Shown here one piece after another: positions 1 to 56,668 of a stretch of 64,000 nt of DNA. Origin of the DNA: Vigna angularis (Eukaryota; Streptophyta; Magnoliopsida; Fabales; Fabaceae); NCBI RefSeq assembly GCF_016808095.1, contig NC_068970.1:40707630-40771629 (forward strand), given 5' to 3'. Below the pieces are notes generated by a model. It was not told the origin of the DNA, ran no database searches, and was given only the letters and a program-made list of their open reading frames with translations. Each line of letters opens with the position of its first letter. The stretch's first letter is position 1. The translations under genes were made by a program, and so were the position numbers.

Positions 1-1615
1 GAAATGAATCTATAATAGATGTATGATCTTGATTATGTAGGATATGTTACTTATTACTATAAATATGATATGAACAATGGTGTGCATAAGTATTGTGTTG
101 TATGACGGTGGAAGGTTATGAATCTCTAGGTTGGTATTGGTGTTGGTCGGACTATCGCCGTTGAAGGCAACGTTTGTAGGCACCAAACTTTAGGCGTTTT
201 GGAAACAACGTGCTTGGATACCTTCATCGGAGGTGCTTTGTGAAGGTTGCCTCCTTTGTTTTGGGTAATTCACTTTTTTGTGTTTGGATTGGTTTAGTTA
301 GTTTAAATTTGTTTGGGCATTTATGGGTTTATTGTGTTATTTGGTGGTATGGTTTAGTGTGGCATGAAGTTTTCTAGAACATATAGTGGTTGATGTGGTT
401 TTTGTGAGGAAAGTTTGAATTTTTTTTGGTTTGTAAGAGTGAACTAGATGATTGACCGACTTATAAGTCTGAGTTTGGAAAGAATAGAGGGCTTGTATGC
501 AAATTTGTGCTATATGTTTTCTCTAAACTCTTGGATGATGTTTTGAAATTAGTGGAATTCTGGTTCCTTACTGATAAATGATAAGTTTGAGATTCAAATC
601 TCTTCTAAATGCCATAAGACCGTGAGTAAATGATAAGCATGAGGTCCTACACCATTTGATATTGGATAACTTTAGAAATCTTTGGTCATATGGGCCATGG
701 TATTATTGGTCTAGTTAATACAACTTGCCTTATGGTGTTTGACCATACTTTCGGTGGAAATTTTCTCAAGCTACTGTCCAGCTCCTTATTTCAATTTAGT
801 GTGTAAAGCCAAAATAAATGCATAATTCAGATTTAAAATTTCCTTGAGTCTAGAAATTTTTTGCACACTTACGAAAATTTGACACATTAACCATAATTAG
901 CTCAATACTTTAAAATTTATGAATTTATAGTCATTAGAGAGATCTTTGAGTCTACTGTCCAACCCAAAAAGAATTAACTCATTTGGATTTATTGGAGAGA
1001 GTTATAAGCAAATCAATTAGCAAAGGTCATAGCTGAGAATACAGAAAAGCGTGATTAAAATGTTGATCTTAAAATTTTTACTGCAACTAACTCTGTGATC
1101 TAAAAATTACGAGTCTTGTGTCCAAAGAAAGATCTTTGAGTTTAAATTCCAACAAAAACAAGAATCATCTCATTTGGAATTCTGTGAAGAGAGTAATGAG
1201 TAAAATAGTGAGTAAAGGTCATAGCTGAAAATACTGAAAAACGTAATTAAAATGTCGATCGTAAAATGTGTACTGTAGTTGACTCTATTATCTAAAAGTT
1301 ACGAGTCTCGTGTCGAAAGAAAGATCTTGGAGTCTAAATTCCAACAAAACAAGAATAATCTCATTTGGAATTCTGTGGAAAGAGTAATGAGTAAAATAGT
1401 GAGTAAAGGGCATAGCTGAAAATACCGAAAAACGTAATTAAAATGTCGATCTTAAAATTTGTACTGTAGTTGATTCTGTTGTCTAAAAAGTTATGAGTTT
1501 GGTGTCCAAAGAAAGATCTTTGAGTCTAGAATCCAATAAAATAAGAATCAATTCATTCGAAGTTCTGTAAAGATAGTTACGAGTAAAACACTGAACAAAG
1601 GTCAGGGTTGACATC
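1..1615. repeat. Left inverted arm of the ULP-carrying element
   Basis: This arm pairs in reverse complement with 4280-5712. Long stretches match at roughly 90 percent by eye, with small indels. The inner part (about 941-1615) is a tandem array of ~191-bp units, each marked by a gatcttTgagtct motif at 941, 1131, 1323 and 1515. The outer part (1-940) is unique within the arm. Confidence 0.85.
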
Positions 1616-1649
1616 AAATTGACTTGAGATTAGGCTCTTTGATATTAGG

Positions 1650-2116
1650 TTTCTTGCTTCACACAGATCATCTTTGCTTCCTTTCTGGGTGCATTCTGAC
1701 AGAAAGATAAAATTGCTTGAAAGCTTAATCAATGATGATTTGCTTGAAACTGGTAAATCTTCACATGATGAAGTTGAGGATAAAAATGTCCCTGTCTTTG
1801 AAGAATTGGGGGACCAACTAATATGTTAAATAATATTATTTTGTTGTTGGACTTTGTTTGTTGTAGATTTGATTGTGGAGTAATTATTTTGAAAATTATG
1901 GAGTTGTGGGAGGGCATCGAGAAATACGAAGGCAACACAATGCCTAGTTACACAACTGTAAGTTGTAAAAATTTTCATGTTCTGGAACTTTGATAGAAAT
2001 GGTGCATTTTATTGATATGTTGTGCATTTTTGTCTTTGCAGGAGGAACTACAACAAGTTAGGAAGAAGCATGTTTGTGATTGGATTTTGGATGTGGACAA
2101 CGTGGAGAGGGCTTAA
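1650..2116 (+). pseudogene. ULP1-type (C48) cysteine protease fragment carried by the Mutator-like element
   Basis: Three coding blocks have intron-like borders. The first (~1700-1835) encodes RKIKLLESLI followed by an acidic stretch, resembling the strand before the catalytic Asp region of ULP proteases. The second, 1867-1957 after a ttgtag acceptor and before a gtaagt donor, encodes FDCGVIILKIMELWEG, where DCG holds the catalytic cysteine of C48 peptidases. The third, 2042-2116 after a ttgcag acceptor, encodes a terminal segment with RKKHVCDWILDVDN and stops at 2114-2116. Family members remove SUMO/ubiquitin-like tags; copies inside Mutator-like elements are usually of unknown role. The His/Asp part and the N-terminus are not seen, and the first block runs into a stop, so this is called a remnant. 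Confidence 0.65.
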
Positions 2117-2459
2117 GTGTTGCAAGATTTAGGCATTGTGTAGATGTTGTTGAATAGGGTTTTTTGAATTGTTATTGATGATTTGTTTACAACTTTTTCA
2201 ATATATATTCATGATGACTGAATGTACATATTTGTTGTTAAAAATGTTCAAAGAAAAATAATGATTACATTTATTGTTAATGAAATTTGAAGATCATAAT
2301 GATCAATGTTTTAAATGTTTGCACTACAGTCCCCACTAAATTTGGATGTGATTATTTATGAAATCTTGTATGTACAGGGTTCTATGTAGAAACAAATGAT
2401 GAACATAAATTGGGTTAAGTGCCAATAAATGCGTCAACATGAGTTGAATGTCCATTAAG

Positions 2460-3480
2460 TTTGAAGAAAAAACCTTCGCTTGAAATAATAATTGGTTCTA
2501 CATCACTTTTTAGTTGAAAAAATGATATGAAATAAATTAGTCACTCCAAAATAAGTGTCATATTCATAATTGACCTACCTGTGCAAAACTTTTGCTTGAA
2601 GTATCCACTTATTTTTCCTTTGCTACCATTATTGTTTCTCCACCATGAGTTTTACTAAATATGGTTCCTTGGCCATGGAATTGTATATGAATTGCATAAT
2701 AGTTGGTTCCACATCACTTTTTAGTTGAAAAAATGATGTGAAATAAATTAGGCACTCCAAAATGACTGTAATATTCATAGTTGATCTGCATGTGCAAAAC
2801 TTTTGCCTGAAGTGTCCACTTATTTTGTCTTTGCTACCATTGTTGTTTCTGCACCATGAATTTTACTAGATATGGTTCCTTGGCCATGGAATTGTATATG
2901 AATGGCATAATAATTGGTTCCACAACACTTTTAAGTTCAAAAAATGATGAGAAATAAATTAGGAACTCCAAAATGACTGTAATATTCATAGTTGACATGC
3001 CTTTGCAAAATCTTTGCCTGAAGAACCCACTTATTTTGCCTTTGCTACCAATGTTGTTTCTGCACCATGAATTTTACTATATATGGTTCTTTGGCCATGG
3101 AATTGTATATGAATGGCATAATAATTTATTCAACGTCACTTTAAGTTCAAAAAATGATGAGAAATAAATTAGGCACTCCAAAATGACTATAATATTCATA
3201 GTTGACCTGTCTGTGCAAAACCTTTGCCTGAAATACCCACTTATTTTGCCTTTGCTACCATTGTTGTTTCTGCACCATGAATTTTACTATATATGGTTCC
3301 TTGGGAATGGAATTGTATATGAATGGCATAATAATTGGTTCCACAACACTTTTAAGTTCAAAAAAATGATGAGAAATAAATTAGGTACTTCAAAATGAGT
3401 GACATCTTCCTAGTTGACTTGCATGTGAAAAACCTTTGCCTGAATTAACCACTTATTTGGCCTTTGCTACCATTGAATTT
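2460..3480. repeat. Tandem array of ~211-bp units, about five copies
   Basis: Units are phased by aatgactgtaatattcatag at about 2551, 2762, 2973, 3183 and 3395, giving spacings of 210-212 bp. Each unit contains tttgctaccattgttgtttc and ccatggaattgtatatgaat. Two neighbouring units keep an open frame, giving near-identical 64- and 71-residue translations. That is a by-product of the repeat and not evidence of a gene. The array lies in the core of the ULP-carrying element, between the protease remnant and the right arm. Confidence 0.9.
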
Positions 3481-3699
3481 CGTTATACTTTTCCTTTCAT
3501 AATTTAAGGATTAACTCTAATACTTTAATTGATTGTCATCAGAAATAATAATTTTGTTCCATTAATGTGACATTATAATTTAATATTACATTAAAATATT
3601 GAAGGACTTACATAAGGATATTTTAACAACGATACTAAATAAAGAAAATTTCCATTGATATAGGAAGTTTGTCTTTAGACATTAGTCTTTCTTTGCACC

Positions 3700-4001
3700 T
3701 TAACTTGGAACAAGGGATGAGTTACAATGTTTAGAAAGATAACGTTGGCATGAGGGATCGACAAGCTTCCTTAGTATGTCCTCTATTTTGTTGTCTTCAA
3801 TGGGGTTTGGTGTAATGACCGGTATGGACAAAGTATTTATTCGGTTTGTTGGCGTTGCATACAAGCCTTCTAAAAATGCACTGAGCTCAGTTTGTTTCAG
3901 ATGAAGGACGTCCGATGGATCCAATTGGGAATGCTGAAACCAAAAGAAGGTAAGGTGGATGAAAATGATGTTCAACGTAAATAATGTCCCATAAGACCAA
4001 A
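3700..4001 (-). pseudogene. Unrecognised exon-like open segment inside the Mutator-like element
   Basis: On the minus strand a pyrimidine-rich tract ending in tttcag precedes an open segment that begins HSQLDPSDVLHLKQTELSAF. It contains TPTNRINTLSIPVITP and ends at a stop near 3700 after a Cys-rich tail (SCQRYLSKHCNSSL). The composition looks protein-like and is unlike the flanking AT-rich DNA. It runs opposite to the protease remnant. I do not recognise the family. It may be the last exon of a second gene carried by the element or a captured host exon. Confidence 0.35.
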
Positions 4002-4145
4002 CAAAGCACAATTGTATTTTGTGTTGAACAATTCAATTACATGGACTTAAAATGTTAAATTTTGATTGGCATCAATGATGGTTTTAAAGAGCACATTAAA
4101 AAGGTTAATTAAAACACACATGCCAATTGCTTGGGAGACCCTTGG

Positions 4146-4244
4146 CGAGTTCAGTCATATCTGGCTGTTGTTGGTTCTGCTTTAGCATCTTGCGGTTTGC
4201 TACCAGATTCTTTTGTTACTTGTGCTCTCCTGCGTTTGACCTTC
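4146..4244 (-). pseudogene. Short exon-like segment, basic, unrecognised
   Basis: On the minus strand an acceptor-like ttgttttcag is followed by an open segment that starts REKVKRRRAQVTKESG and then reads a Lys/Ala/Pro-rich end to a TGA stop (~4146). About 32 residues are visible. It sits just inside the right arm, upstream in the same orientation of the 3700-4001 segment. It could be a captured exon or chance; no family is recognised. Confidence 0.25.
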
Positions 4245-4279
4245 TCTCGCCTGAAAACAATAAATCTAATTATTTTCAA

Positions 4280-5712
4280 TATTTTCAGCTATGCCCTTTA
4301 CTCACTATATTAGTCATTACTCTTTCCACAAAATTCCAAATGAGATGATTCTTGTTTTGTTGGAATCTAGACTCAAAGATCTTTCTTTGGACACCAGACT
4401 CGTAACTTTTAGACAACAGAGTCAACTGCAGTACAAATTTTAAGATTGGCATTTTAATTACGTTTTTCACTATTTTCAGCTATGACCGTTACTCACTATT
4501 TTACTCATTACTCTCTTCACATAATTCTAAATGAGATGATTCTTGTTTTGTTGGAATCTAGACTCAAATATCTTTCTTTGGACACCAGACTCGTAATTTT
4601 TAGATCACAAAGTTAGCTGCAGTAAAAATTTTAAGATCAGCATTTTAATCACGTTTTTCTGTATTTTTCACTATGACCTTTGCTGATTGATTTGCTTATA
4701 ACTCTCTCCACATAACTCCAAATGAGTTCATTCTTTTTGGGTTGGATAGTAGACTCAAAGATCTCTCTAATGACTATAAATTCATAAACTTTAAAGCATT
4801 GAGCTAATTATGGTTAATTTTTCAAATTTTCGTAAGTGTACACAAAATTTCTAGACTCAAGGAAATTTTAAATCTGAATTGTGCCTTTATTTTGGCTTTA
4901 CACACTAAATTGAAATAAGGAGCTGGACATTAGCTTGAGAAAATTTCCATCGAAAGTATGGTCAAACACCGTAAGGCAAGTTGTATTAACTAGACTAATA
5001 ATACCATGGCCCATATCACCAAACATTTCTAAAGTTATGCAATATCAAATGGTGTAGGACCTCATGCTTATCATTTACTCACGGTCCTATGGCATTTAGA
5101 AGAGATTTGAATCTCAAACTTATCATTTATCAGTAAAGAACCAGAATTCCACCAATTTCAAAACATCATCCAAGAGTTTAGAGAAAACATATAGCACAGA
5201 TTTGCATACAAGCCTTCTATTCTTTCAAAACTCAGACTTACAAGGTATTTATTCGGTCAATCATCTAGTTCACTCTTACAAACCAAAAAAATTCATACTT
5301 TCCTCACAAAAACCACATCAACCACTATATGTTCTAGACAACTTCATGACACACTAAACCATACCACCAAATAACACAACAAACCCATAAATGCCCAAAC
5401 AAATTTAAACAAACTAAACAAACCAAATACAAAAAAATGAATTACCCAAAACAAAGGAGGCAACCTTCACAAAGCACCTCCGATGACGGCAACCAAGTAC
5501 GTTGTTTCCAAAACACCTAAAGTTTGGTGCCTACAAACGTTGCCTTCAACGGAAACAGTCCGACCAACACCAACACCAACCTAGAGATTCATAACCTTCC
5601 ATTGTCATCCAACACAATACTTATGCACACCATTGTTCATATCATATTTATAATAATAAGGAGCATATCCTACATTATCAAGATCATACATCTATTATAG
5701 ATTCATTTCTCT
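4280..5712. repeat. Right inverted arm of the ULP-carrying element
   Basis: This is the reverse complement of the left arm. The same ~191-bp unit is marked by its inverted motif at about 4378, 4570 and 4759, one boundary fewer than on the left. The match runs to the position corresponding to window base 1, so the true arm extends further right than can be paired here. Confidence 0.85.
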
Positions 5713-12396: not shown

Positions 12397-15300
12397 TTAG
12401 CCAAAAATTCCACCAGTCCCCGATTCACCCTGCTGCAACTCCTTCCGGCGCTGCTCCTCTAAAGGATCTGGACTCTTGTATATTCTCCGCACACGCCTAT
12501 TCATATGAAGAAATTGTGAAAACTTGTCAAAACTGAAAATTGTTGATAAGGACTCAATATTTTACACAACTTTTCTCCTCTGTCAAGAATATAAAACAGT
12601 TACGTAATGTTTTAGGTATAAAAGAACTGCTCCAGGATTTCCTATTAGGTTAAAATACCTGTCCTGAGCGTGTTGAGCAGGAAATGTAGGCATGAATTCT
12701 TTACTTTTGGGGAGAGGGACCTCACGAAACCACTCATGATTTAGAGCAGCTTCAGCAGTGATCCGCTGCATAAAATAGTGTCTTATCTTAATATTCACAC
12801 AAATATTTATTACCAAATTAAATTGTATCTCATGTAACCTTTACCTTTTCAGGGTCATATGTTAGAAGTTTGTTCAACAAATCAAATCCTGAATCAGAAA
12901 GAACAGGAGATCCAGTGAATGATGTGGCAGGAAATTTTTTCCGCAGGAGGTTGTACCTGAAAGGAACATTCCGACTGTTAATACAAAATAGAAAAGTTGT
13001 TCAACAGTCAAGTCACCAAGGGAGGCCAGATAGTCAGACCAGAACCACCCAAAGCTGGAAGCCTGGGAAAACAGTGGCAAAACATAAGCACAATGTAATC
13101 AAACAGTAATTTTCTTAATAAAGGAAATCGTAAGCACTTACTGGTGTTTGACAAAATTGACCTTGACCCCAGGTAATTTTGAGAAACCAGGCCATATTGC
13201 TTCATTAGGGGTGCCTAGAATCCGAAAAATCTACAAGAATAACATAAATCAAAATTGTAAAACAACCACAAAGTAGTTAAGTGCAAGAAACCATAGGTTA
13301 CAAGGAAAGAGAACAATGATGCAAGAATATATCCAATGTAAGGAAAATAACATTATCATACCTTGTCAAGTTGGTCAAACTCCGTTCTCCCATTAAACAG
13401 TGGTTCCTTAGATAATAGCTCAGCCATTATACAGCCTAGAGACCACATGTCTATGGCTGTTGAATACTGTTTTGACCCCAGAAGGAGTTCAGGTGCCCTG
13501 AGAAACATATAGACAACAATTAGGTAATAACATCATTTCTGCAAGAGAATGTAGTCAAACACATTGAGATAAAATAGTAAAATGAAGGCAAGTGCAACAA
13601 ATCTGTGATGACAGACAATGCACCCATGTAAAAGCATTACTGCTGCATAAAAAGGATGGATGAGAACGTAAATATTGACCTAAAGTAGCAATTATTAGGC
13701 AATGAGGCTACATCGTTGCATACTGATAATAGCTTCAAACAGATACTAGTTTAATTAGAATTATTGAACATGACAGCATCGCTATACGGTTCCAAAATTC
13801 ATGAGAAAAAAATAAACTATACCCAAGAATGTAAAATACCAAATAGCCTGTGATGTAAATACACACATACAGAGAAATAAAAGACATAATCAAATTGCAC
13901 ATATAAGCAGATTAGCATTTACCTGTACCAAAGAGTAACCACCAGGTGTGTATATGGCTTTAAAGGACTCCCATACTGACGGGCCAAGCCAAAATCACAA
14001 ATTTTGAGCTCACCCCTATTATTTAAAAGCAGATTTGATGTCTTTAAATCCCTATGAAGCACCCAGTTGTCATGAAGATACTTCACACCTTCTAAAAGCT
14101 GGATCATCAAGCACTTCACTTCACTCTGGCTGAAAGGTTGCTTCATTGCTTCCATTAGTCCTTTAAGGTCATGCTCCATATATTCCATGACCATGAAAAT
14201 ACTATCAAGGCTACTTCCTACCACTACTTCTTTAACATCAACTATGGATGGGTGGTGAAAAGAAAGAAGAATATTTATTTCCCTAAGAGAAGTCAGTGGG
14301 AAGCCCTCCTTTTCCTTCTCCATCTTGACCTTCTTCAATGCTACAATTTCTCCGGTCTTTTTATCCCTAGCCCTATATACAACACCATATGTTCCTTCAT
14401 CTATCTTGTTAAGTCTCTCAAACTCATCAACACTTCTACAACCCTGAAGCATGTTGACAGTTCTTTGGGGTGGAGAAGGAGGTTCTGGAGTCTCCCTACC
14501 ATCGTCTTCATCTTCATATTCCGTTTCGGAGTGACTGACACTTGTTTCACTTTTCCCACCCTGAGGGTCAACCTCCATGAAGTCATCCTTCTCTGACTCC
14601 ATACCAGGATGATCATCACTGCTGGAAGTTCTCCCACGGACACCTCTTTCTTCAGATTCAGATGATCTGGCTCTAGCTCCTTCAATACCTTCAATCTTGG
14701 ATTCCACAGGGCTCAATAACTTGTTCCTTAGTCTGCCATCCAAGAACTCAGGAGACACCTTCCTCCTTCGTTTGGGCATCTCCTCATCATTGAGGATCTC
14801 ACCCTCATCACCAGGAGAGTTATCTCCAGCTGCCCATCTTGAAGATGATATATTGCGAGCTGGAACATAAACTTCACCTTCTAGATGATCAGCTTCCTGA
14901 TCATTACCCCACCTCCCTTTCGGAGGTGATGAATGCAAACCTGAAGGAGAGGGCAAGGTAATCTTAGATGTTGCATTCAACTGGAGATCCTCGGTCTCCT
15001 TGTTCTTGACAGGATGTATTTGTACAACACCATTTGGAGCATTTGGTGACGGTGACTGATGGAATACCTTTGGCAATGGAGGCGGAGGAGGAAGTGCTGC
15101 TGCCACCACTGTAGAGGCAGAAACCCTAACTCTGGATGACTCACTGACATCTTTGTCATCCTGATCCCACACTATGGGCGAGAATTTTCTTTTCCTGTCC
15201 GGCACCGGTGGGGATCGGGTTCTTGTTTCTTCCAACATGGAAACCTCGGAGTCTTTCGCCCTAGATTCTGACTCAATTGCATCATCAGAACCACTCTCAC

Positions 15301-15616
15301 TGGAAAGCTCACCAGGCTCTCTATCCATTGCTTTGATAGAGAAACCACATCGGCGAGGACCAAGGCCACTGCTGCCAGAGTCACTCCTACTCGAAGATGA
15401 TCGGTACCCACCATTAACACCTTCCCTCTCCTTAATATCCCTCTGCCTCACCCTAACCCTGTCCCTGGACCCTCCCCTCACAACATCACCGCCACCATTC
15501 CTAACACGATCGTAATCCTCTTTCGAATTGGCAAGCCCGCGTCTAGAACCTTCGAGTTTCGATTCGCGCTCTCTGAAGTCGTTTTCGCGGTAACCGCCAT
15601 GTCTCCCAGCCGCCAT
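12397..15616 (-). CDS. CDKG2: Cyclin-dependent kinase G2-like protein (CDK11/PITSLRE class), six coding exons
   Basis: Coding exons on the minus strand are 15616-13923, 13497-13362, 13230-13142, 12956-12845, 12765-12659 and 12496-12397. All borders are GT..AG and the phases agree, giving 745 residues, close to the ~750 of Arabidopsis CDKG2. Residues 1-398 are an Arg/Ser/Glu-rich, low-complexity N-terminus typical of CDK11-like kinases. The kinase domain starts near 399: Gly loop 408-413 (GTYGVV), Lys428 (VALKK), the PLTSLRE helix 440-446, HRD 521-523, DFG 541-543, T-loop Thr556 in [12 protein letters not shown], and APE 566-568. The C-terminal tail is short and basic ([19 protein letters not shown]) and ends GTGGIFG. 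Family knowledge: cyclin-L-dependent nuclear kinases acting in splicing, thermo-sensitive meiosis and cell cycle. All catalytic residues are present, so the gene looks functional. CDKG1 is less likely because of the long N-terminus. Confidence 0.95.
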
Positions 15617-16090: not shown

Positions 16091-16544
16091 AAAGGAATCT
16101 GGGTGACAAAAAAACTGGATATTATCGGATACTCGTTTTTTCCAAAATGTTTTAAAACAAAATGTTATAATACAATGTTTTAACATAATTATTTGATTAG
16201 ATTTAGCGCACATCCTACTCCGTGCCCATCATACCAATTTTATAGAGCATTGCTATCATTTTTATTTTTATTATTTACATATGATTGTATATATTAATTT
16301 ATAGGTTTAATACATCATTTAGTCCCTACTTTTAGGGGTTTGGTTTAAAGTGATCTTACCTTTTAAAAAAGTTCAGTAAGGTTCCATATTTCGTTAAAAA
16401 ATGTTCAATCCGATCTTTTTCGTCCACGCCATTAAAAACATAACGGTGCAATGTGGTGTTATGAATACGTGACACGTTTGAAGAGGTTGCATTGTGTAAA
16501 TATTTAAAAAAAATTAAAATGATATGTTAGGTGCAAATCTCAAC

Positions 16545-16800
16545 AGCCACACCATCTACAAATCCTCCAACCTGGTCCAAAATCACTCTCTAATCATGAT
16601 GAAATGACAACGCCATTGCATTTGCATTAGAGGGCTCCACCTCAATAATCCTCGCCTTTGGAGTAACCCTCTTCACATAACAATCACCACAGAGCAGATA
16701 ACTCTTAACAACTTCCTGGGAAGCTTTGCCATCATATTATAAGCTCCACAAATCTTAAATGAGAATCCGGTAGGTACTGGGGGGAATCCGACGAGACCCA
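16545..16800 (-). pseudogene. Captured threonine dehydratase (biosynthetic threonine deaminase) fragment
   Basis: Three minus-strand blocks match plant threonine dehydratase in order. A VSSDSPQYLP block (~16765-16800) resembles the start of the mature enzyme. FSFKICGAYNMMAKLPR followed by VICS (~16700-16772) holds the PLP-binding lysine (SFK). VKRVTPKARIIEVEPSNANA continuing through MALSFHHD and RVILDQVGGFVDGVAV (~16548-16690) is the later catalytic-domain segment. The blocks are joined out of order of reading frame, with large internal deletions and an in-frame TAG after SFHHD, so no enzyme is made. The parent enzyme works in plastids at the first committed step of isoleucine synthesis. The MULE evidently captured it from a host gene. 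Confidence 0.85.
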
Positions 16801-18412
16801 AGAGCGTAGGGGAGCCACTAGCTGGGTATCCTCAACGACGATGGCAGCAGGGGAGGAAGAATGCGCGGCCTCCGGCGACTTGTGTGCGAAATAAGAAGCA
16901 ACCCTAAGTTACATTCTAGAGCAACTCGAGAGAATGCGCAAGAGAGAAACCACCACTTTTTGTCCTTCACCATGAGCGTAATGAGTAATAGGGAGAAGAT
17001 TGGGAGTACCAAGGAGTTGCGCAGGGGCCCTTATTGCAGTCATAGGATTTTCTAAGAACCAAGGGGCCTTTAAAGAATTCACTGGAAAACCCAGGTAAGG
17101 GGAGTTAACTTTTGGATGTATTGATTGAGCATGATGTGTTTCTTTTGAAACTTGTTAATCTTGAGAAACTATGTGAAAAGATAGTATACCCAATTGGAAG
17201 GTTGTGAGTTGCTAAGGAAAAAAATGGTTTGGGATGTTATTCCCAGAATATGAATGCATGGGTTGAAGGATTACAGTGCATGTGGTTTTGTAGTAAGGGA
17301 AAAGTGCATATCGTGAATCTTTGGAGGGTAGTCGTAGGTTGGCTAGTTTAAGAATGTAAATAAGAATAGGAAGTGTTAACATGTTGTATGAGTGAAATAT
17401 GACAATAGAGTGCATTGGTGATGGGTTGTGTTCTCAATAGAGATACCAACATGGGTTTATGGGTATAATAAATTATTATTTTGTAATTGCATGGAATGTT
17501 TTATGGGGATTAAATGTATGGAAGTGGTATAAATATGGAGTAATGTACTGTCATCACATGATGGTATAAGTGTGTTGGGTAAACTTTAAATATTTGTTTG
17601 GACCCATGCACTAGGAAATGTTTTGTTTGTATGTAATTATGTGAGCACCGAAAGTGAGCACTAAAATAGTCACCATATTTGGATGTTTGTGCTTTTGTTT
17701 ATGATAAATTGACACCTTGTGGCAAGAGAAGAAGCGTGGAACACTTGTAAGTGTGTGCACCGTGGGATTGGGCAGTAGAATGCAAAGAAGAGAGAAGCCT
17801 CACGGTTTTGTGAGAGAAAGAAAGGAGAGGGTCTCGGATAATGTGTGCAGCAAAGTCATGGTGTTTTGTGAGAGTTATTTGTGTAAGAAAGAGAGAAGGG
17901 TTCACCACCATGAGAAACTAGAGAAATAGTGGAGTTGTTGCATGTATTATTGAGTCATGTGTTTGTTTGTGAGTTGTGCATCACCGTGAGAGAAAGAGAG
18001 AAAATGGGTTGTACTTTGTAAGTTGTATGTTGTGTAAGTTTGAGAGTTTAAAGTGTTGTTTGTGTATTTGTGTGTTCTGGAAAGTAATCCAGAAAAAATA
18101 CAAAGAGTATATATTTCGTCCAAACAGTTAAATATCTAGTTTTATGGGTTTCGAAAATTATATCATTTTTGAGTTATTATTGAGTGTAATAGTACATAGG
18201 ATGATATAGGATGGGATCTGGAGGTGGGTGTATAAAACTGGTGCATTGTTGGGTGATATAGGGTGAAATAGTATATTGGGTGATAAAGCCATTTACGTTT
18301 CTCTCTACATTTAATTCTTCAAACAATCATTTACGTTTCTCTCTCTACATTTAATTCTTTCAGCCACCTATTCATCAAACTGCATAACTCACTCAGGTTT
18401 GGCCACTGTAGC
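16800..18412. other. Unrecognised interior of the Pack-MULE
   Basis: GT-rich DNA with short open frames on both strands and no recognised motif. A donor-like site (aacccag|gtaagg) occurs near 17093 on plus. It may contain further captured pieces or untranslated DNA. Confidence 0.4.
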
Positions 18413-18571
18413 ATTTGCACCGTTATGTTTTTAACGGTGTGAGCAAAAAGGACCGAATTGAACATTTTTTAACGAAATATGGGGTCTTACTGAACTTTTT
18501 TAAAAGGTAGGATCACTTTGAACAAAACCCCTAAAAGTTGGGACCAAATGATGTATTAAACCTAATTTATA

Positions 18572-23689: not shown

Positions 23690-26110
23690 ATGTTCAAAAT
23701 CCAGGAAGTTCATGTGATACCTTGATAGTGGTTGAAATAAGCACATGACAAGAGATAAAAAGAAATTTCCAAACTTCGAGAAAAAAAAACAAAGTTATGT
23801 CCCATATGGTGAAAACAACAAAGGGAAGATCCTAGGAATAAGAGACATAGGAAGTGCAAATACCTTGATGATAAAGGATGTATTGGTTGTAGAAGGATTG
23901 AAGCATAATATACTCAGTATTAGTTAACTATGTGACAAAGGTCTCAAGGTAACATTTGAACCCAATTACTGCACTATCCATGAAAAAGATTATTCTAAAA
24001 TTGCTTCGAAAGGTATTAGGCATGCAAATATTTATTTAATTGATTTAGAAAATGCATCAAATAAAAATATTTTGTGTTTAGTAGTAAAAGAAGAAAATCC
24101 ATGGTTGTGGCATAAGAGAGCTGCTCATATCCATATGTAACAATTGAATAGACTTATATCTAGCGATTTAGTAATTAGGCTACCAAAACTAAATTTTGTT
24201 AAGGACAAATTATGTGCTGCATGTCAAAAGGGTAAACAAATTAAATTGACTTTTAATTCGAAAAATATTGTTTGAAGTGAAAAACCTTTAGAACTCTTGC
24301 ACATGGATTTATTTGGTCCTTCAAGGATAAAAAGTTTTGGTGGAAATTATTATGCTTTAGTTATAGTTGATGACTATTTAAGATATACATAGACGTTCTT
24401 TTTTACTCTAAAGAGTGAAACTTTCAAACTTTTCAAAAAGTTTGCAAAACAAGTTAAAAAGGAAAAAGATTTGAAAATAAAATTTGTTCATAGTGATCAT
24501 GGAGGAGAATTTTAAAATGAATCATTTGAAAATTTTTGTGAAGAACTTGGAATTTCTCATAACTTTTCTATGTCTAGAACTCCACAACAAAATGGAGTAG
24601 TAGAAAGAAAGAATAAATCTTTAGAAGAATTTGCAAGAACTTTATTAAATAAATCAAATATTCCAAAACATTTCTAGGTTGATGTTGTGAGTACTACATG
24701 TTATGTTTTAAATAGAATGCTTATTAGATCTATTTTAAAATGTACTCCTTATGTTTAAAGGAAGAAAACCTAATGTTTCTCATTTGAAAATATTTGGATG
24801 TAAATGTTTTGTTGTAAATAATGGAAAACAAAATTTGGGAAAATTTGATTCAAAATACGATGAAGCTATATTTCTTGGTTATTCTCTAACAATTAAAGCT
24901 TATAGAGTTTATAATCAGAGAAAGTTTGAAATGAAAGAATCAATGCATGTTATCTTTGATGAAATTGTGGACCTTGAGGAAAAACCTCTTGAGTCAGATG
25001 AATCAGATACAAGTGAAGAAGAAGACTTACAAGAGAGAACAAATAAAGAGACAAATAATCCTCAACCTGAAGATTTAGCTAAGACATGACAACAACCTCG
25101 AGGATTATCTTTAGAAAATGTTATTGGAGATGTCTCAAAAGGGGTAAGTAGTCGAAGGAACTTAACAAATTATTGTATGATTGTGGCTTTTGTTTCACAG
25201 TTAGAACCTAAGAATGTCAAGGAAGCGCTTTAAGATGATCAATGATGTATAGCAATGCAAGAAGAACTTAACCAATTTGAAAGAAATCAAGTGTGGGAAT
25301 TAATCCCTAGAGAAAACACTCATCAAATGATAGGAACCAAATGGGTGTTCAGAAACAAACTTGATAAAGATAAAAACATCATCAAAATCAAAGCTAGGCT
25401 TGTTGCACAAGGCTATATTCAAGAAGAAGGTATTGATTATGATGAAACATATGCTCTTGTTGCCAGGTTAGAGGCAATACGCCTACTTTGCTTATGCATT
25501 TATTATGAAATTTAAGTTATATCAAATGGATGTTAAAAGTGCTTTCCTAAATGGTTTTCTAACAAAAGATGTATTTGTTGGACAACTACCTATTTTTGAA
25601 GATTATAAATATCCAAATCACATATTTAAATTAAAGAAAGCTTTTTATGGTTTAAAACAAGCTCTTAGATCTGGTATGAAAGAATTAACAATTTTCTATT
25701 GGAAAATATATTTAATCGAGGCAAAGTTGATTCCACCTTATTTATTAAAAGAGTAGGAAAACATATTTTGTTTACCCAGATATATGTTGATAATATTATA
25801 TTTGGATCAACTAATAAATCTCTTTGCGAGGATTTTGCTAAGCCTATGCAGGGTGAGTTTGAAATGTCAATGATGGTTGAGTTGACATTCTTCCTTGGTT
25901 TACAAATAAAGCAAACGAAAAAAGGTATGTTTCTTACTGAAACTCAATATTGTAGAGAAATGCTAAAGAAATTTGAAATGGATAAAGCTGAGGAGGCATC
26001 GACTCCTATGGCTACATCATGTTATCTTGACAAGGATGAATCAAGTACGCTCGCAAACCAAAATTTGTATAGAGGTTTCGGGGTGATAGGTAATAGGTTC
26101 TTTATGGTTT
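23690..26110 (+). pseudogene. Copia pol: protease, integrase, reverse transcriptase (truncated)
   Basis: In order: protease tail (DVLVVEGLKHNILSIS ~23880), the integrase zinc region (WLWHKRAAHIHM ~24110), integrase core residues in HMDLFGP (~24300), HSDHGGEF (~24490) and PQQNGVVERKN (~24583), then reverse transcriptase from [10 protein letters not shown] (~25285) through QMDVKSAFLNG (~25525) to YVDNIIFG (~25785). The catalytic YVDD has become YVDN, so the enzyme is inactive even apart from the stops. Sequence ends after LANQNLYRG (~26075), where RNase H is deleted. Confidence 0.85.
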
Positions 26111-27513
26111 GTGGATTGTAAAGTTAGCTTTATCTGCCTTATGTAGCACAAGGTAAGGAGGAAACTTCTTGGGTTTCACAAAACAGGGTTGATAGGGGGC
26201 CTAAAGGGTTTTAGACTAGATTAAGGGTCTTCGGTGCAAGTTTTTAGTTGATCAGAATGTCGAGTCCTTGGAAGTTTTAAGGCTTAAGTGGTGGTTTTTG
26301 AAGCTGTCTTGGTGTATAAGTGTGATGAATGGACGCACACCTGCTTCATGATTTAATGCAACCCATGTTGGAGATATTATATGGCTGAGTTACAATGATG
26401 GACATAGTAGTTTGATGGTTAAGTGGTAAAACTTTGGTAAGAGGGTGTATCAGGGGTTGGTATAAAACCTTGTGTTAGTGATAAACATGTGAGAAAGGAA
26501 AATATTGGTTGGGAGTTTGAGATGCATGTGAAGTAGATATGAGTGTGGGATTTGAATAAATGAGTGCAAAAACTTAGAGATATGTACTCGTGGTGGTATG
26601 TGAAAACCTAAAGTTCTTTCTTGAGTTATGAGTATGTTAAGAGTGTGTATCATGTAGGTATATAATACTGGAGCTTAGCATGATGGTTGAACGTTTGGTA
26701 TCATTGAAGATGTTGAAGACATGAGTGCATGGGTCTCTTAATTTTCGTAAACGTGTTATGCTAGTGGGGTTCATGATGAGTTTGAGTTTATCGTGGGTAA
26801 GGATTGATATTGTGAAATGTAGGAGATGATGTAGACTGAGTTTTGGTACAATGTATGTTTTGGATGAGTAATGGGATTCAATGGATAAATAAGTTCATGC
26901 ATGTTGTCACGTTTTGGTGGAAACTCTCGTGAAAGAGAGTATATGGTTACATCTAGAAAAAATTATAGAGTGAGGATATGGTGTTACGTGAAAGTAACCA
27001 TTGGTTCTGGGGATATATGCTTAAAGTGGTTGTGGGTCCATATGTGTGTATGATGAGTTATTTAACTTGCTTGCATGTGATTGGTTAAGGGAAGGGGACT
27101 TGTGGAGCCACATGGGGTCCACTTGAAGAGTGGAGGGGTAAATAATTATACATTGGCATGAACTTGGTGTATAACGTGTGTAGATGTGATAGGGGGAAGT
27201 TGAGGAACTTTCTGTGGGCCCCTTTGAATGGTGGAGGGTTTCACATATTTTGGTATGTGTAAGTAACTAAAAAAGGGGGTGTGGCTAGTACTTAGTGGAC
27301 TAATTGTGTGGTTTGGTTGACTTTGTACTTTTGTGGTATGTGTGGTGTTTATGTCATTGAGTATGTGTTCCGGTGATATTTTCTTAAATCCACATTGGTA
27401 CTTTTCTTCTTGCAAGAGGGTAGAAAGGTAAATTTCTTCATCTTTAAAAGGCAGTGGAAGAGATAGGTCTCTTCGTTCATGAAGGGCGACAAAAGAGACT
27501 AGGATTCGAGGGC
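26111..27513. other. GT-rich DNA without recognised coding
   Basis: This is likely a non-coding retroelement relic. It contains tttaaaaggcag (~27444) followed by a purine-rich stretch, which could be an old LTR promoter. No ends or duplications were found. Confidence 0.35.
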
Positions 27514-29085
27514 TGTAATGCCCCAAAATTTAGGGTGTCACGGGTTATTAAAAAAACTGATAATTTTCAAAACTTTCTTATAGCGCGAACATGTATTTTC
27601 AAAAACCTCAGCATTTAAATTTACATCGCATAATAGTTCCAAAATACTTGTCCAATTGCATTATTTAAATAAAACCAAAATAACGAAGGAAATAAAATAA
27701 CTCTAATTACATTATCTTAAAAACTCAATTGTAATAGCTTTAAATAAAACCCCAAGTTTGTCCCCCATCATCTCACGAATCTATCATGTTTTATCTTCAT
27801 CTATAACATCATCTACTCTCGTATAGCATCACACATTATACAATCATCGCATTCACATGCACAAACACAAACATGTATGGGGTAAGCTACCAATAAAACA
27901 ATTATAATAATAAGATACATAAATATTGATTATATCAACAATAATCAAAAACCTCATACATAGAAGTAATAACCGTAGGATTCCTAAACCTTTAACCCAA
28001 CAATCAATCATGATAAATTACTAAGTCCTCTAACCTAGATCCTCGGTCCTTGATCATCACATATCTAGACCGTAGTCGATCCGTTCATCAACACCTATGT
28101 TGTCTACACCACATAATCTTATTACTATCAATATAGCATTCATTGAACCATCATCGTCATAGATATACCACACTCATGACTATCCCAGTCAAGAACAACA
28201 CCATGATCGTCACCATACCATAATATCATAGTGGAAAGAGTCCATCTCACTCCTATACCCTACCTCACCGACTCTGGCCGCTCCTACAACCCACCTATAG
28301 CCTCCCCTATAAGACATCTGTAGCCTCCCATATAGATCATCTCCTTTCAATGCACGCAAGGCAAAAGGAAGCACCTATCCACATATAGAACCAATATTTA
28401 CGAGGTACAACAAGTAGACTTATCCTCCACTCTCATGTTCATCAATCACATACTCATGTACATCCCAACACTCATTCATGCTCCACTTTCAACCACAAGT
28501 CAAACTGACCCTAAACATAATCACTAACCTCAATCTCTGATTATCATGATGTTCCACAACTCCTCAGGCTTGGTTCACGTCCATTTTTCATCAAATTCGC
28601 CATTTTCACTAAAATGCACTGTGACTATCGATTATCACTTAAAATAATCGATTCGTTACTACCCAAACCACCCATGAGTAAAATCAAAGAAACACACCCC
28701 AAGAACGACACCTACAACGATAGAGAACTCTAACCCTCATGCATAAGTTACACCACCAAAAATCCTACCATTTAAACCAAATAACGTGATCTAGGAAATA
28801 CACAACATCTACAATTACAACCATAAAGATTTAGCTCCCCTTACAACATTATCAAAAATTGATCAATGCATTCAGAATAATACAAAAATAAACACCAAAT
28901 CACCAATATAACATTTAAATCACAATAGTTAAGTCCTTATTACAATTCCATCACACCAAACAACATCAATTCATAATAAGACTATAATAATCAATGCGAT
29001 AACCACACTTACATTCCCTTAAACGAAATCATGTTCAACCCATTAGCTTTCAACCATCTGCCAATTTAAGGCAACTCGTGCCTAT
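27514..29085 (-). repeat. LTR-like relic, left arm of an inverted pair
   Basis: It starts TGTAATGCCCCAAAATTTAG, the complement of the ...GGGGCATTACA ending common in Del/Tekay-type gypsy LTRs. Read on the minus strand it runs to catgatttcgtttaagggaa (~29030). That end and two other blocks recur on the plus strand at 38742-39085 and 40460-40613. No target duplication was found. Confidence 0.5.
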
Positions 29086-29380
29086 TGATAACGGCTGAAT
29101 ATACCGTTATCTGTGATTCAATTTTGATGCTAAATTAACCCTTTTTGACTTTGAAGCTTGCTTAAACTCTTGTTTTTAGTTTATTTTTGTGAATAAGAGA
29201 GTTGAGGTTATACTTGATGATTTTATCACTAAATTCCCTTGATTTTGTAGGTTATTGGAATGAATTGGAAGAGGAGTTGAAGTATCAAGGAGTTGGAACC
29301 CAAGAAGGACAAAAAAAGCACCAGAAAAGAAGGTTAAAAAAGGTCGCAGGACGCCTGATTGTCCTTTTCTGGGGCCCTAG

Positions 29381-32032
29381 TGATAACGATTGAAAATACC
29401 GTTATCTGTGATTCAATTTTGATATTAAATCAACCCTTTGTTACTTAGAAGCTTGCTTGAACTCATGTTTTAGTATAGTTTTGTGAATAAGTGAGTAGAG
29501 GGTATACTTGATGATTTTATCACTAAATTCCCTTGATTTTGTAGGTTATTAGAATGATTTAAAAGAAGAGCAAAAGTATCAAGAAGTTGGAATTCAAGAG
29601 GGATAAGGATTTTTATGTTTTTGTTTTATTTTTATTTGAATTTTGTTTATTTTGTTTTTATGTTAGCTTGCTTATATACTTGGTTTAATGAATTGTGCTG
29701 CAATGGTTCGGTATGATGTGATAAATTGTTGTTTGTGATGAGTAATATTCTTGTGTTTGCTCTATTGTTTTATGATGCATGTTGGGTTAATGATTGGTGA
29801 GGCTTTTAAGCATAAATGGTGGTTGTTCATAATTGTTAAAAACAGATGCATGATTTCAATTGTGATTAATATGCTAGGCAGGATGCTTATCAAATTGTGG
29901 AACTTGATTTAACCTGTGAGAGGTTGATTTTCTATGATTAAACCACTTGCTTGCTTGTTACATATGATCAAGGCCATGTTTTCTTCTCCCTTAGAGCCAA
30001 TGCCAATAGGTGAATCCAACAAAGAATAATGTTTCTCTTTACCCTTTGAACCTTGAGCTTAAAGTTGAAAGTGGAAAACCCCTTTTTGAAATCCTTACCT
30101 TGAGTTAAGTAGAGTATGTTTTTGTGGAAATGGGGAATGGTTCAAGTTTGGGGTGATGAGAAATCGAAAAGAACTCTTTGAAATTCATTAAAGAGCATTG
30201 GGCAAAAGAAAGAGAAAAGAAAAAGAAAAGAGAAGAAAAGAAAGAAAAGAAAAGGTTAAGCTCAATGCAAGTAAAGTTGGGAATAAGTTCAAGATTGGTT
30301 TCTCACATAAAAGAAGAAAGTGAGTTAATTGTTAATGAAAATAAATGAATTGTGCACTCTCTTAACTCAAGGAATTTTGTTGTCTAGAAAATTTGGGGTT
30401 GAAAATATCGTTATCTGTGATTCAATTTTGATATTAAATCAACCCTTTGTTACTTAGAAGCTTGCTTGAACTCATGTTTTTAGTATAGTTTTGTGAATAA
30501 GTGAGTAGAGGGCATACTTGATGATTTTATCACTAAATTCCCTTGATTTTGTAGGTTATTGGAATGATTTAAAAGAAGAGCAAAAGTATCAAGAAGTTGG
30601 AATTCAATAGGGACAGTTAAAACATCAAAAAAGGAGCATAGGAGGTCATGCAGGGCGCCTAGGCACCCCATTCTAGGCGTCTGAGCGCCAGTTTGTGTAG
30701 TGTAGGGCGCCTGAGCGCCCTAGTCAGGGTTCCTAAGCGCCAGGTTTCTCACGCACAACGCCTAGGTGCCCCACTTAGGGCGCTGAGCGCCAGTAAAGTG
30801 GGCTTGAACCTGTTTTCTGTTATTTTTTAGTTCTATTTAAGGACTTGGATGTCCTAGGGATTATATCTTTTGATGGCTTGAGCATAGAAAGACACTTTTC
30901 ACCCCTTGGGGGGTAGATTTGGGAATGTGACAACTCTCCTATTCTCTTTCTAGGGTTTTTCTATCTCTTTCATTCCATTGTTCATCTAGTTTCCCCATGA
31001 CAAGGGGGAACTAAATTCAATTTGTTGTTGGGGAAGATGTAACCTCTAAACTCTCATGTCTTTGAATCGATTCTTATTTATTTATGCTTCTTTCATTAAT
31101 TGTTAGCGTTATTCTTCTTTGCTCAATGCTTGTTATGTTTAACTCATTCATGGCATGATTATTGGTTTTCGTGATATGGACATATACGGGGAAACCAAGA
31201 TATGGGAAATTGCTCCCAAAAGTAATATTGCCTAGACATAAGGATATGAGTTTTGGTTATCTTAAGCTTCTGTGCGTATGTAATGCAAAATTAATTGCTA
31301 GGGAGACAAGACATTGTAAACTAGTAATTAAGGATAGGCTTTCTTTGCCGAGACATCGGGTTTTAGGTAATTTAGAAAGTGATATTAACATTAATGAAGA
31401 AGATGAATTCATACATGCATGAGAGAAAACTTGGTGAAATCTAAACCCCAACAACATATTCATCTCATTTTTTTAAGATCATCCATTCAAAATTGCATTC
31501 ATGTTTATTTTTATAGCATTTGCATTCAAAACCACTAAATTGTTCTTCAAAAGTCTTAATTAGTTGGGTGATCACATGACTGTTTAATGCCGTGAGTCAT
31601 TTAGGAAACGATACTTGGTCTTACCATTTTATTATTACTTGATACGATTCGGTGCGCCCAGGCGGTGTACGGGAAAAAGCTGACGCTCAGGCGCCCCACA
31701 ATACAAAGCTGGCGCTCAGGCGCCCTACACCACACAAACTGGCGCTTAGGCGCCCAGAATGGGGCGCCCTGCGTGACCTCCTGTGCTCCTTTTTTGATGT
31801 TTTAACTGTCCGTCTTGAATTCCAACCCCTTGATACTTTTGCTCTTCTTCCAAATCATACTAATAACCTACAAAATCAAAGGAAATTAGTGACCAAATCA
31901 TCAAGTATAATTTCTACTCACTTATTCACAAAACTATACTAAAAACATGAGCTCAAGCAAGCTTCTAAGTAACAAAGGGTTGATTTAGTATCAAAATTAC
32001 ATCATAGATAATGACATTTTCAACCATTATCA
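29381..32032. mobile_element. Rearranged relative of the Athila-like element, with both ends of U3 type in inverted orientation
   Basis: The insert begins TGATAACGATTGAAAATACC and ends with the complement of the same LTR start (TTTTCAACCATTATCA). Its flanks are CCTAG (29376-29380) and CCTGG (32033-32037), a 5-bp duplication with one mismatch. Inside, in order: 29381-29603 LTR start (plus); 29604-~30390 the 3' non-coding internal region matching ~36150-36960; ~30396-~31656 a nearly full LTR (plus) that lacks its first bases; ~31656-32032 an LTR start on the minus strand. No coding is retained. Confidence 0.8.
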
Positions 32033-33162
32033 CCTGGTTGCAGGAGCTCACGCAACCACGCCAGGTTGCCCTTTTATGGGGCCCTCAGCGCTAGCGCAGG
32101 GCGCTTAGTTCCCTTTCTAGGGCCTTCGGCGCTACTCTGCACTGCAGCACGCCCGGACGCCCATCTAGTTTCAATGCATCGTTGAGCGCCTGGTTGCCCC
32201 TTTCAAGGCCCTCAACGCCACTTCTCTCGCAAGCTCGCTCGATTGCCTTAAGTAGGGGAGCTGAACGCCAACGTGTTGGGCGCATTATCCAATTTTGATC
32301 TATTTAAGAACTTGCACGCCCTAGGGTTCACATCTTTTGATGGCTGAAGGTTAGAAACACACTTTTCGACCCTTTGGAGGCAGATATGGCATGCGGGACC
32401 TATCCTATTCTCTTTCTAGGGTTTTTACCTCATTCTTCCATCATGTAACCCTAGGTTCTCCATGAAAATGGAGAACTAAACTCATTTGTTGTTGGGGAAG
32501 ATGTAACATCTAAACATTCATGTATTTGAATATGTTTTGAATTATTTTATGCTTCTTTCATTAATTGTTAGTGGTTTTCTCCTTTACTCAATGCTTGTTA
32601 TGTCTTGATCACTCATAGCATGATGTATGGCTTTTTTTGTTATTGGGAAATACCTAGGAATCAGGATCCAGAGAATTTCACAAAAAGGGGCTATTGCCTA
32701 AAGATAGGGATAAAATGTTTGGTTGTCTTAAGCTTCTTTTCATAATGCAGAATTGATTATTAGGGATACAAGACATTGTGGTCTAATAATTAAGGATAGA
32801 CTTTTTACGCCGAGACATCGGGTTCTAAGTAATTTAGAGGGTTACATTAACAATTTAATAAAGAAGATGAATTCTTATATGCATGAAAGTAAGGACGGTG
32901 AAATCTAAACCCCAACAACATAATCATCTCATATTATCAACACCATTAATTCTTGTGTCAAGCCTCAATTGATCAATTTGCATTCATATTTACTTTTGTT
33001 GTATTTGCATTTAAACACCAACAAAATAGTTTTACAGTCTTAATTAGTTAAGTAATTACACGATTGTTTAGTGTCGTGAGTCTTTTGGGATACGATTCTT
33101 GGTCTTACCATTTTATATTACTTTTAGGATTTGGTACACTTGCTAATGAGTTAACAAGTTTT

Positions 33163-33180
33163 TGGCGTCGTTTCCGGAGA
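33163..33180 (+). other. Gypsy primer-binding site (tRNA-Asp type)
   Basis: TGGCGTCGTTTCCGGAGA starts seven bases after the 5' LTR end and resembles the tRNA-Asp complement TGGCGCCGTTGCCGGGGA used by many plant gypsy elements, with three changes. Confidence 0.75.
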
Positions 33181-33484
33181 CTCGTGGTTTAAACTATACT
33201 TTTGTGTGATTCTTAACCAGTTTTGACTTTATTTTTATTGTTCTTTAATTTTTGTTGATTTATTTTTATTTGTATTTTTTTAGGCTAATTAGGTGCTCTA
33301 GTGTTTTGTTTTTTAGTGGATGCAAGATAAGATTCGCACTAGGAGCACAAAAATATCTGAACCTCTTCTTATAGGTCTGGAAAATAGTAGAAGAAGAAGG
33401 AAGAAAAGGATTTCCAGACAAATTTTTCCTTCTCTTGAGACTCTTCAACAACCTTTCACATTATCTGACTAGGAGACAGAAGAT

Positions 33485-34280
33485 ATGGCTGACAATCAGA
33501 ATGGTAGACGTACTCTCGCAGATTATGCAATAATCACAGGTCCTCTTCATTTTAATAGCATTGCAAGGCCAAGGGTTAATGCCGTAAGCATGGAGATGAA
33601 GCATCCTCTCATTCACTTAGTACTGAGTCATCGGTTTAATGGCTTAGCTCATGAAAATCCATATGAACATCTGACGTCTTTTAATGAAATATGCAATATA
33701 GTGAAGATTAATGGTGTGCCAAATGAGGCTATTAGACTTAGCTTGTTCCCTTTATCTTTAGGAGGCAATGCTAAGATGTGGCTTAATTCATTCCCAGAGA
33801 ATAGCTTCACTGAGTGGGAAGATGTGGTGGCTAAGTTCCTGAACAAATATTTTCCTCAGTCTAAGGTAAATAAAGGGAAATAAGAAATTTCTTCTTTTAG
33901 ACAAGGCATGGATGAAACTCTAGGTCAAGCGTGGGATAGATTCAAAGGGTTATTGCAAAAAATGCCCACACATGGCTTTCATGAACCTACGGTGGTCATT
34001 CTTTTCCTTGGAGGACTGAGTTCACAGACTAAATTGATGCTGGATGCCTCAGCTGGAGGTAATATCAAGTGCAAGACTCTAGAGGAAGCTTATGAGTTGA
34101 TTGAAAATATGGCCGCCAATGATAATGAGATGCATAATGAAAGAGCTCAATTTCAACCAAAAGGAGTTCTACAATTACAATCTCAAGATGCTCTGTTGGC
34201 TCATAAGAAAATAATGACTCAACAATTGGAGACTCTGATGAAGAAAATATCTCAACTGAGTCAAGAATTGTAGAATGTTT
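33485..34280 (+). pseudogene. Athila-like gag, split by a stop
   Basis: The first part (33485-33883) opens MADNQNGRRTLADYAI and includes the gag core LGGNAKMWLNSFPENSFTEW (~33760-33820). A stop at 33881 interrupts it. The second part (33908-34273) continues with LGQAWDRFKGLLQKMPTHGF and the conserved LEEAYELIENMA. Both belong to the Retrotrans_gag family of gypsy capsid proteins. A CysX2Cys-type region follows around 34300-34340 in another frame. Confidence 0.85.
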
Positions 34281-34689
34281 CTCATGCTCAACATCAACTT
34301 TGTGAGCTATGTAGTGGAGATCATGTCAATGGACAATGTGCCATGCGAGCCATTACCCAAGAAGAAGTCAATTTTATGGGTAATCAGGGCCGCCAAGGTA
34401 ACTACAACCAAGGGTGGAAACCTCACCCACGCATGGGTCAAGGGCAAGCTGGACAATTCAATAGACCACCACAGTAGCAATGGCAACAAACCTCTTTATA
34501 TGATAGAACTGCAAGGCTAGAAGAGACACTCCAACAATTTATGCAGGTGTTTATCTCAATCATAAAAGCATTGAAGCTGCTATAAGGAATTTGGAGATAT
34601 AGGTTGGTCAATTGGCTAAGAAGTTGGAGGATAAGTCTGATAAAAATTTTGGGGCTAATACTAAAGTTAACCTTAAGGAGGATTGTAAC

Positions 34690-34920
34690 GCCATTATGAG
34701 TATAAGTGGTGAGATGTTAGTTGAGAGAGAAATTGAGAGAAAAGAGAAAGTTGAGTTGAGTGAAAAAGAAGAAGAAATTGAAGAGAGAAAATAGGAGGCT
34801 GAGAGATAAGAAATTGAGAGAGAGGAGGGAGAGAAAAAGAAAGAAGAATAGAAAGAGAGAAAAGAAAAGGAGAGAGAAGAGAGAGAAAAAGGAAAAGAAA
34901 TTGAGAAGCCTCTTCCTTAT
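34690..34920 (+). repeat. Purine-rich (GA) stretch in the gag-protease linker
   Basis: About 230 bases are almost all A and G on the plus strand, built from gagagagaa/aaagaaag units, and encode Glu/Lys/Arg-rich text in all frames. In Athila relatives this linker is charged, but here the repeat has expanded and shifted frame. Confidence 0.8.
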
Positions 34921-35124
34921 CCAAAGATCTTTTCAGATAAGGAAAAAGAGAAGCAATTTGGGCATTTCATGGAGATCTTCAAACAATTGGAGATTACTAT
35001 GCCTTTGACCGAAGCAATGAAACAAATTTTTGTTTATGCGAAGCACTTGAAGCAATTCCTGAGCAAGAAGAAGAAATATTTAGATAAGGAAACAATTGAA
35101 GTGTAGGGAAATTACAGTGCCATC

Positions 35125-35560
35125 ATGCAAAAGACTCTCCCTTCAAAATTTAAAGATCCGGAGAGTTTTACAATTTCGTGCACCATTGGAAACCATAATT
35201 TAGGGAAGGCTTTTATTGATTTGGGGGATAACATCAACCTGATGCCCCTATCTTTGCTCAAAAAGAATGGTGGTTTGGAGGTCAAACCCACAAGAATGGT
35301 GTTGCAAATGACGGACAGGTCCATCAAGCATCCTTATGGTGTAGTGGAAGATGTTGTGGTTCAGATAGATAAACTCCAATTCTCAATTGATTTTGTGGTG
35401 ATGGAGATGGGGAAGATGTAGACATCCTTCTCATTCTTGGAAGACCATTCATGAAGGCAACCAAGGTCGTAATTCATGTAGATGATGAAGTTTTAACATT
35501 GAAAGATCAAGATGAAGAGGTGACTTTTAATGTCTTCAATGAAGTGCAACCAATTCAAGC
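35125..35560 (+). pseudogene. Athila-like retropepsin (aspartic protease), active site altered
   Basis: The segment KFKDPESFTISCTIG leads to the active-site region DLGDNINLMPLSLL (~35218), which in relatives reads DLGASINLMPLS; the Ala-Ser to Asp-Asn change hits the flap of the D-x-G motif region. ADRS-like TDRSIKHPYGVVEDVVV follows. A stop and frameshift at ~35420 separate the terminal ILGRPFMKATKVVIHVDD block. Confidence 0.85.
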
Positions 35561-35699
35561 AAAACAGACTAGCCCTGAAGCACCAGATGAAGTTTTCTCA
35601 GTAACTAGTCTACCTGATCAAGCTGCAAAGTTGGTCAAGAGGAATCATAATTGTTTCTCTCCAAAACTGAAGGAAGAGGATAAAGATAAAGAAGGACTA

Positions 35700-35870
35700 G
35701 TTCACTAAGACCCTGTGTTGGAAAGTAATGAACCCAAACCTGGCCAACCAGTGAAATTCAAGAACAGGTTATGGGTTATCAATGATATTAAAGCAAATGG
35801 ACTTTTTGAGATTGAGGCTCCTTATTCCAGGAGAGTAAATTTGGTGACTAGGAATCTACTGAGATTTTGT
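35700..35870 (+). pseudogene. Possible integrase C-terminal scrap after a large deletion
   Basis: Soon after the protease, PGQPVKFKNRLWVINDI and the following GLFEIEAPYSRR resemble the end of gypsy integrase (relatives read ..KSRW.GPF.V). The reverse transcriptase, RNase H and integrase core expected between are gone. The later ggaagcaacccaat (~35960) is the usual motif just after pol in this lineage. Confidence 0.6.
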
Positions 35871-36950: not shown

Positions 36951-36970
36951 AAGTTTCAAGTTTGGGGTTG
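36951..36970 (+). other. Polypurine tract before the 3' LTR
   Basis: AAGTTTGGGGTTG ends directly at the 3' LTR start (36971). The same motif (ATTTGGGGTTG) precedes the inner LTR near 30400. Confidence 0.7.
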
Positions 36971-56068: not shown

Positions 56069-56618
56069 TATTTGATCCTCTCTTGTTTTTATCTCTAAGG
56101 CTTTGCTCTTTTGGATGTATTTGGGGAAGATGATTTGGGAGGAGATGATTTGAGTAAATTTGAGGGTAATTTTTTAGTTGTTTTTTTGAGTAGATTTGTG
56201 GGTAATTGAAAGTGGATTTAGAAGTAAAGTTTGTGAGAATTAGTGTAGGATTTGATTGATGTGATAAATTTTAAAAATTGGTTTAATAGATAGAAATTAA
56301 AGATTACCAAAATGTCCCTAGTTATAAAAGTAATATAAAATGTTATTTATAAATGTTATATTTAATTATAAAAATGTTTATAAAAAGAAAAAGATTTTAT
56401 ATCATCACACAAATCAACTATTTTGTTAAGATATATGATCATTTTTTTAGATACATGATCATTTCTCTTCTCTTACACTCACAAACAAATTATTTAATTT
56501 ATTATACTCAAATATTTTTTAAAAACGTTAATTTATTAGATAATTTTGGGTTATTATTTGTTTCAATTACTGATGTTTACATGACAATATCTCCTCTACA
56601 CATACTTTTTTTTATCAA

Positions 56619-56620
<2 letters not shown>

Positions 56621-56667: not shown

Positions 56668-56668
<1 letters not shown>

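Follow-up and report, generated by a model that had tools for sequence, protein, structure and literature searches.

Mutator-like elements (MULEs) and Pack-MULEs are recognised by a small number of structural hallmarks. As outlined in the available portion of PMC3310237, these are a target-site duplication of 9-11 bp and terminal inverted repeats (TIRs) that typically measure 100-500 bp; Pack-MULEs are additionally non-autonomous and carry genes or gene fragments (PMC3310237, same portion). In the literature that we searched, judged by titles and abstract openings, there was no report of a Pack-MULE with a copy of threonine dehydratase (TD), nor of the element described here. This element lies in a 64-kb stretch of Vigna angularis DNA (the window, meaning the whole stretch that was analysed), which is plant DNA with 34% G+C, and would represent one more legume case of this well-known class.

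Results

Structure of the element

The element spans positions 16304-18562 of the window, a length of 2259 bp (just under 2.3 kb), starts with GGTTTAATACATCATTT and ends with AAATGATGTATTAAACC. Outside the region matching TD, it is organised as follows.

16295..16303, no strand: left 9-bp target-site duplication TAATTTATA, exact copy
16304..16451, plus strand: left TIR, 148 bp long, sharing 89.2% identity with its counterpart at the right end
16882..18414, no strand: rest of the interior, with scanned open reading frames (ORFs) lacking a recognised domain and with short internal near-repeats
18415..18562, minus strand: right TIR, partner of 16304-16451
18563..18571, no strand: right 9-bp target-site duplication TAATTTATA, exact copy

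The alignment of the two 148-bp TIRs, with 89.2% identity, has an E value of 1e-51, and a second comparison returned 150 bp at 89%, a length that includes 2 bp of the target-site duplication. MULE TIRs may differ from each other already at insertion. Both the inverted repeats of about 150 bp and the perfect 9-bp duplication described in an earlier note on this DNA were recovered, the repeats falling within the 100-500 bp of Pack-MULEs and the exact duplication, placed directly at the TIR ends, within their 9-11 bp. Since drawing 200,000 random pairs of 9-mers from the window gave 9 identical pairs, the exact TAATTTATA duplication at the element ends is not due to chance. Within the 64-kb window no further copy of the element was found. 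Exact-match searches with its TIR patterns gave 0 hits in viral contigs and 0 in prokaryote genome contigs, as expected for a plant element, and the sole Rfam match at gathering scores over the window falls outside the element.

A Pfam scan of 10 of the 26 interior ORFs (the other 16 being no longer than 61 residues) detected no transposase domain, and the longest ORF overlapping 16900-18420 has 81 residues. Because the scanned ORFs lack a transposase, this test classes the element as non-autonomous, as Pack-MULEs are. Two further Pfam matches in the interior (E 0.15 and 0.17) lie below the curated cut-offs and were judged to be chance.

Threonine dehydratase sequence inside the element

A tblastn search of the whole window with the full-length V. 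angularis TD protein (P0241) placed three blocks of this host gene within the element.

16768..16881, minus strand: TD block 1, P0241 residues 43-80, near the protein start, the most Vigna-like block
16691..16765, minus strand: TD block 2, P0241 residues 148-174, FSFKI...VICS, with the SFK motif
16539..16679, minus strand: TD block 3, P0241 residues 289-335, with ILDQVGGF and one in-frame stop

The best E value belongs to block 3 (1e-17, 38/47 columns identical), with 9e-10 for block 1 (29/38) and 2e-6 for block 2 (22/27); together, 89 of the 110 residue pairs are identical to P0241. We take block 1 to be the transit-peptide region and the SFK of block 2 to be the PLP lysine motif. All three are collinear, share the minus strand and lie wholly inside the element, with 87 bp between the left TIR and the first clear block. 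The earlier note had proposed three in-order TD blocks on this strand, which the tblastn search located; TD sequence is indeed present in the interval that it gave, 16545-16800, but this interval is too short, as TD reaches 16881 through block 1.

The outcome that the note had named as telling against its identification, a different enzyme as best match, was not seen, either in tblastn searches restricted to TD queries or in a search of PDB sequences. In the latter TD came fourth (E 1e-9), and first apart from the three top rows, which are ubiquitin or polyubiquitin and stem from summed weak repeats. By Pfam, single blocks gave no match, and blocks 2 and 3 joined reached only E 0.04. As a control, a 330-base stretch with most of block 1 (16781-17110) was base-shuffled 15 times and compared with the N-terminal 130 residues of the P. 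vulgaris TD, the shuffled versions scoring 27 to 46; the unshuffled sequence scored 95, but over a longer stretch (16460-17110). An upstream extension of block 1 towards the TD N-terminus, through 16882-17110, was considered and not assigned to TD. The frameshift-aware alignment of the P. vulgaris TD starts at residue 73, and the tblastn alignment of the V. angularis TD at residue 43.

The copy is decayed. Besides the stop in block 3 there is a two-residue gap in block 2, the reading frames of the three blocks are all different, and TD residues 81-147 (67 residues) and 175-288 (114 residues) have no clear match in the element, which agrees with the deletions that had been proposed. Given the stop, the gap, the three frames and the 67 and 114 missing residues, the TD copy is, as judged from its sequence, dead and unable to encode the enzyme.

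Donor of the captured sequence

The blocks were scored against 151 TD proteins, merged from two lists (the best 120 of each) obtained with one plant TD, identical to a database entry, and one Phaseolus TD as queries. Among the 151 listed, V. angularis P0241 has the best summed score over the blocks (173.7 bits), ahead of P. vulgaris P0108 (160.6 bits) and Cajanus P0244 (157.2 bits). It is block 1 that decides this ranking and puts P0241 on top: there Vigna scores 53.1 bits vs 44.7 for the next TD, and the segment VVEDTQLVAP of this block is found in the V. angularis TD and not in that of P. vulgaris. Vigna and Phaseolus are equal over block 2 (42.0 bits), and over block 3 Phaseolus is 1.1 bits better (79.7 vs 78.6 bits). 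Because P0241 scores best over the summed blocks, the donor was probably the host lineage's own TD gene. One member of the protein set, the Hevea model P0012, opens with an additional TD stretch that looks partly frameshifted and is joined to a longer TD; this opening stretch may be a further case of a TD pseudogene, in another plant.

A possible spliced template

Indels of at least 6 residues relative to P0241, within residues 90-600, occur in 14 of the 151 TD models. In three of the 151 the indel is at residue 295/296 and looks intron-like.

Salix P0047, residue 295/296: 13-residue insertion
Pistacia P0103, residue 295/296: 22-residue insertion
Hevea P0012: 17-residue deletion ending at residue 295/296, fused model

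The three models read as if an intron at residue 295/296 had been mis-called in each. Block 3 of the element crosses this position with no insertion and, as an intron-like indel is found there in 3 of 151 models, a spliced template for the TD copy is possible. Three of the 14, P0245, P0246 and P0257, are legume models, and their indels lie elsewhere. In the Thlaspi model P0021 residues 134-175 are absent, a hint that an exon would finish close to where block 2 does. The earlier note had described the blocks as lacking introns; this may hold for block 3, which is unbroken across the site of the putative 295/296 intron, intron loss itself being only suggested. The TD copy stops short of the TD 3' end, so that a tail need not have been kept.

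The CDKG2 neighbour

The gene nearest to the element is CDKG2, the first long ORF of which is identical to a Vigna umbellata protein at 560 of 565 residues, which points to a host that is this species or one closely related to it, and contains a kinase domain by Pfam.

13919..15616, minus strand: first long ORF of CDKG2, with the ATG at 15616 and its upstream side facing the element

The element starts 688 bp upstream of this ATG. The distance to the CDKG2 promoter given previously, about 200 bases, corresponds to no measured value and gives way to the 688 bp measured to the ATG. Because the element sits upstream of CDKG2, an effect on its promoter is possible. The TD blocks and CDKG2 are both on the minus strand; minus-strand transcripts of the element would be TD-sense and head towards CDKG2, and only plus-strand transcripts would be antisense to TD, heading away from CDKG2.

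Other features of the window

The window holds several further repeats and coding remnants. Positions 1-5709 form a large nested inverted repeat, with 91-95% complementarity between the longest arms. Each arm contains tandem units of some 191-192 bp, and at 2485-3475 a 211-bp unit is repeated 4.7 times; the whole is perhaps a foldback or long-TIR element with its left end beyond the window. At 29081-38359, direct and inverted repeats of ~80-300 bp are clustered over 9 kb, with a similarity of roughly 64-98% (based on 20 of 25 direct families). A retrotransposon gag-like ORF lies at 33485-33883 on the plus strand, and its last 12 bases overlap, on the opposite strand, a match to the plant snoRNA snoR71 (33872-33978, minus strand; 46.4 bits vs a gathering score of 40). 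Copia-type retrotransposon remnants are found at 25699-26121 and 48689-49174, with matches to an RVT_2 reverse transcriptase and to gag below the curated cut-off. An ORF at 56615-57076 has an LTP_2 lipid-transfer-protein domain and, at its end, a low-complexity tail of IY repeats, where the reading frame probably runs on into an intron.

Discussion

Taken together, the inverted repeats, the 9-bp duplication, the scanned ORFs without a recognised transposase and the three collinear TD blocks argue for a Pack-MULE with a deleted, minus-strand copy of TD, as the earlier note had put forward. By these four criteria we assign the element, with high confidence, to the non-autonomous TIR-type Mutator-like elements of the Pack-MULE kind. 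The best reading is that of an ordinary decaying Pack-MULE. Through gap repair or template switching, an ancestral element would have taken up a portion of TD from the host lineage and would then have lost internal pieces of it; a transposase acting in trans may have carried the element to the site upstream of CDKG2, where it would have decayed since, without a coding function. The single indication that the captured unit moved would be the 9-bp duplication.

The same arrangement could in principle have arisen in two events, if a decayed TD pseudogene fragment had been inserted later, as DNA, into a plain MULE instead of being captured. The short distance of 87 bp between the left TIR and the nearest clear TD block would fit such an origin, as would the unassigned source of the greater part of the interior (16882-18414). 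However, the TD sequence lies wholly inside one element with an exact terminal duplication, its three blocks are collinear, and by eye there is no duplication at the edges of the TD part itself, so that we regard a separate insertion as highly unlikely. Less credible again is a regulatory role, in which plus-strand transcription would yield antisense TD RNA and small RNAs that lower the host TD. The orientation of the copy would permit it, through plus-strand transcripts driven by the TIR or divergent from CDKG2. Yet 89 of 110 residues are identical to P0241 and, as estimated from residue identity, perfect 21-nt pairing with it would be confined at best to four runs of 10-11 identical residues (30-33 nt), and we give this role very little weight. 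In rice, 24-nt small RNAs are linked with methylation of such elements, according to the part of PMC4858842 available.

A variant of the Pack-MULE reading has more in its favour. Here the TD template would have been spliced, leaving the element with exon sequence only, either from a processed TD retrocopy, pre-existing or landed later, or from cDNA used in gap repair. Block 3, unbroken at the site of the indel in 3 of 151 models, points in this direction, and a retrogene inside a DNA transposon is on record (ARF6 in MER20), for which the accessible text of PMC8277862 also gives recurrent retroposition as an alternative. On the other hand, the intron is deduced from doubtful models of other plants, one of which (P0012) is fused, and the legume models P0245, P0246 and P0257 have no indel at 295/296; blocks 1 and 2 may each fit one exon, and past block 3 the TD-sense strand is T-rich with no poly(A) tract by eye. 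We therefore consider a spliced template somewhat unlikely, and that the element itself captured the RNA-derived sequence is, in our estimate, unlikely. If the Vigna TD gene has an intron at 295/296, the copy in the element derives from spliced sequence; and if the capture were of this kind, a cut-and-paste DNA transposon would have gained host sequence via cDNA or a retrocopy and not from an intron-bearing gene. A true absence of the intron would bear on how such elements acquire genes. In the animal-genome survey of PMC8277862, as far as its available part describes, intronless captures of multi-exon parents were dropped as retroduplicates, so that such captures may go uncounted.

Returning to the ordinary, decaying Pack-MULE as the preferred reading, the element can be set beside three known systems. 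It may resemble a processed TD pseudogene, should block 3 indeed lack an intron; unlike such a pseudogene, its TD sequence is internally deleted, lies within transposon ends and shows no poly(A) by eye. CACTA elements have 3-bp duplications and short TIRs. To this superfamily belongs Tgm-Express of soybean, likewise a legume DNA transposon with host gene fragments according to the part of PMC1947982 available, whereas the element here has a 9-bp duplication and 148-bp TIRs. The Pack-MULEs of rice, maize and tomato are the closest match, with the same TIR length, a 9-bp duplication, no recognised transposase and fragments of host genes; a difference is that the captured fragments are internally deleted in the Vigna element, and perhaps come from a spliced template.
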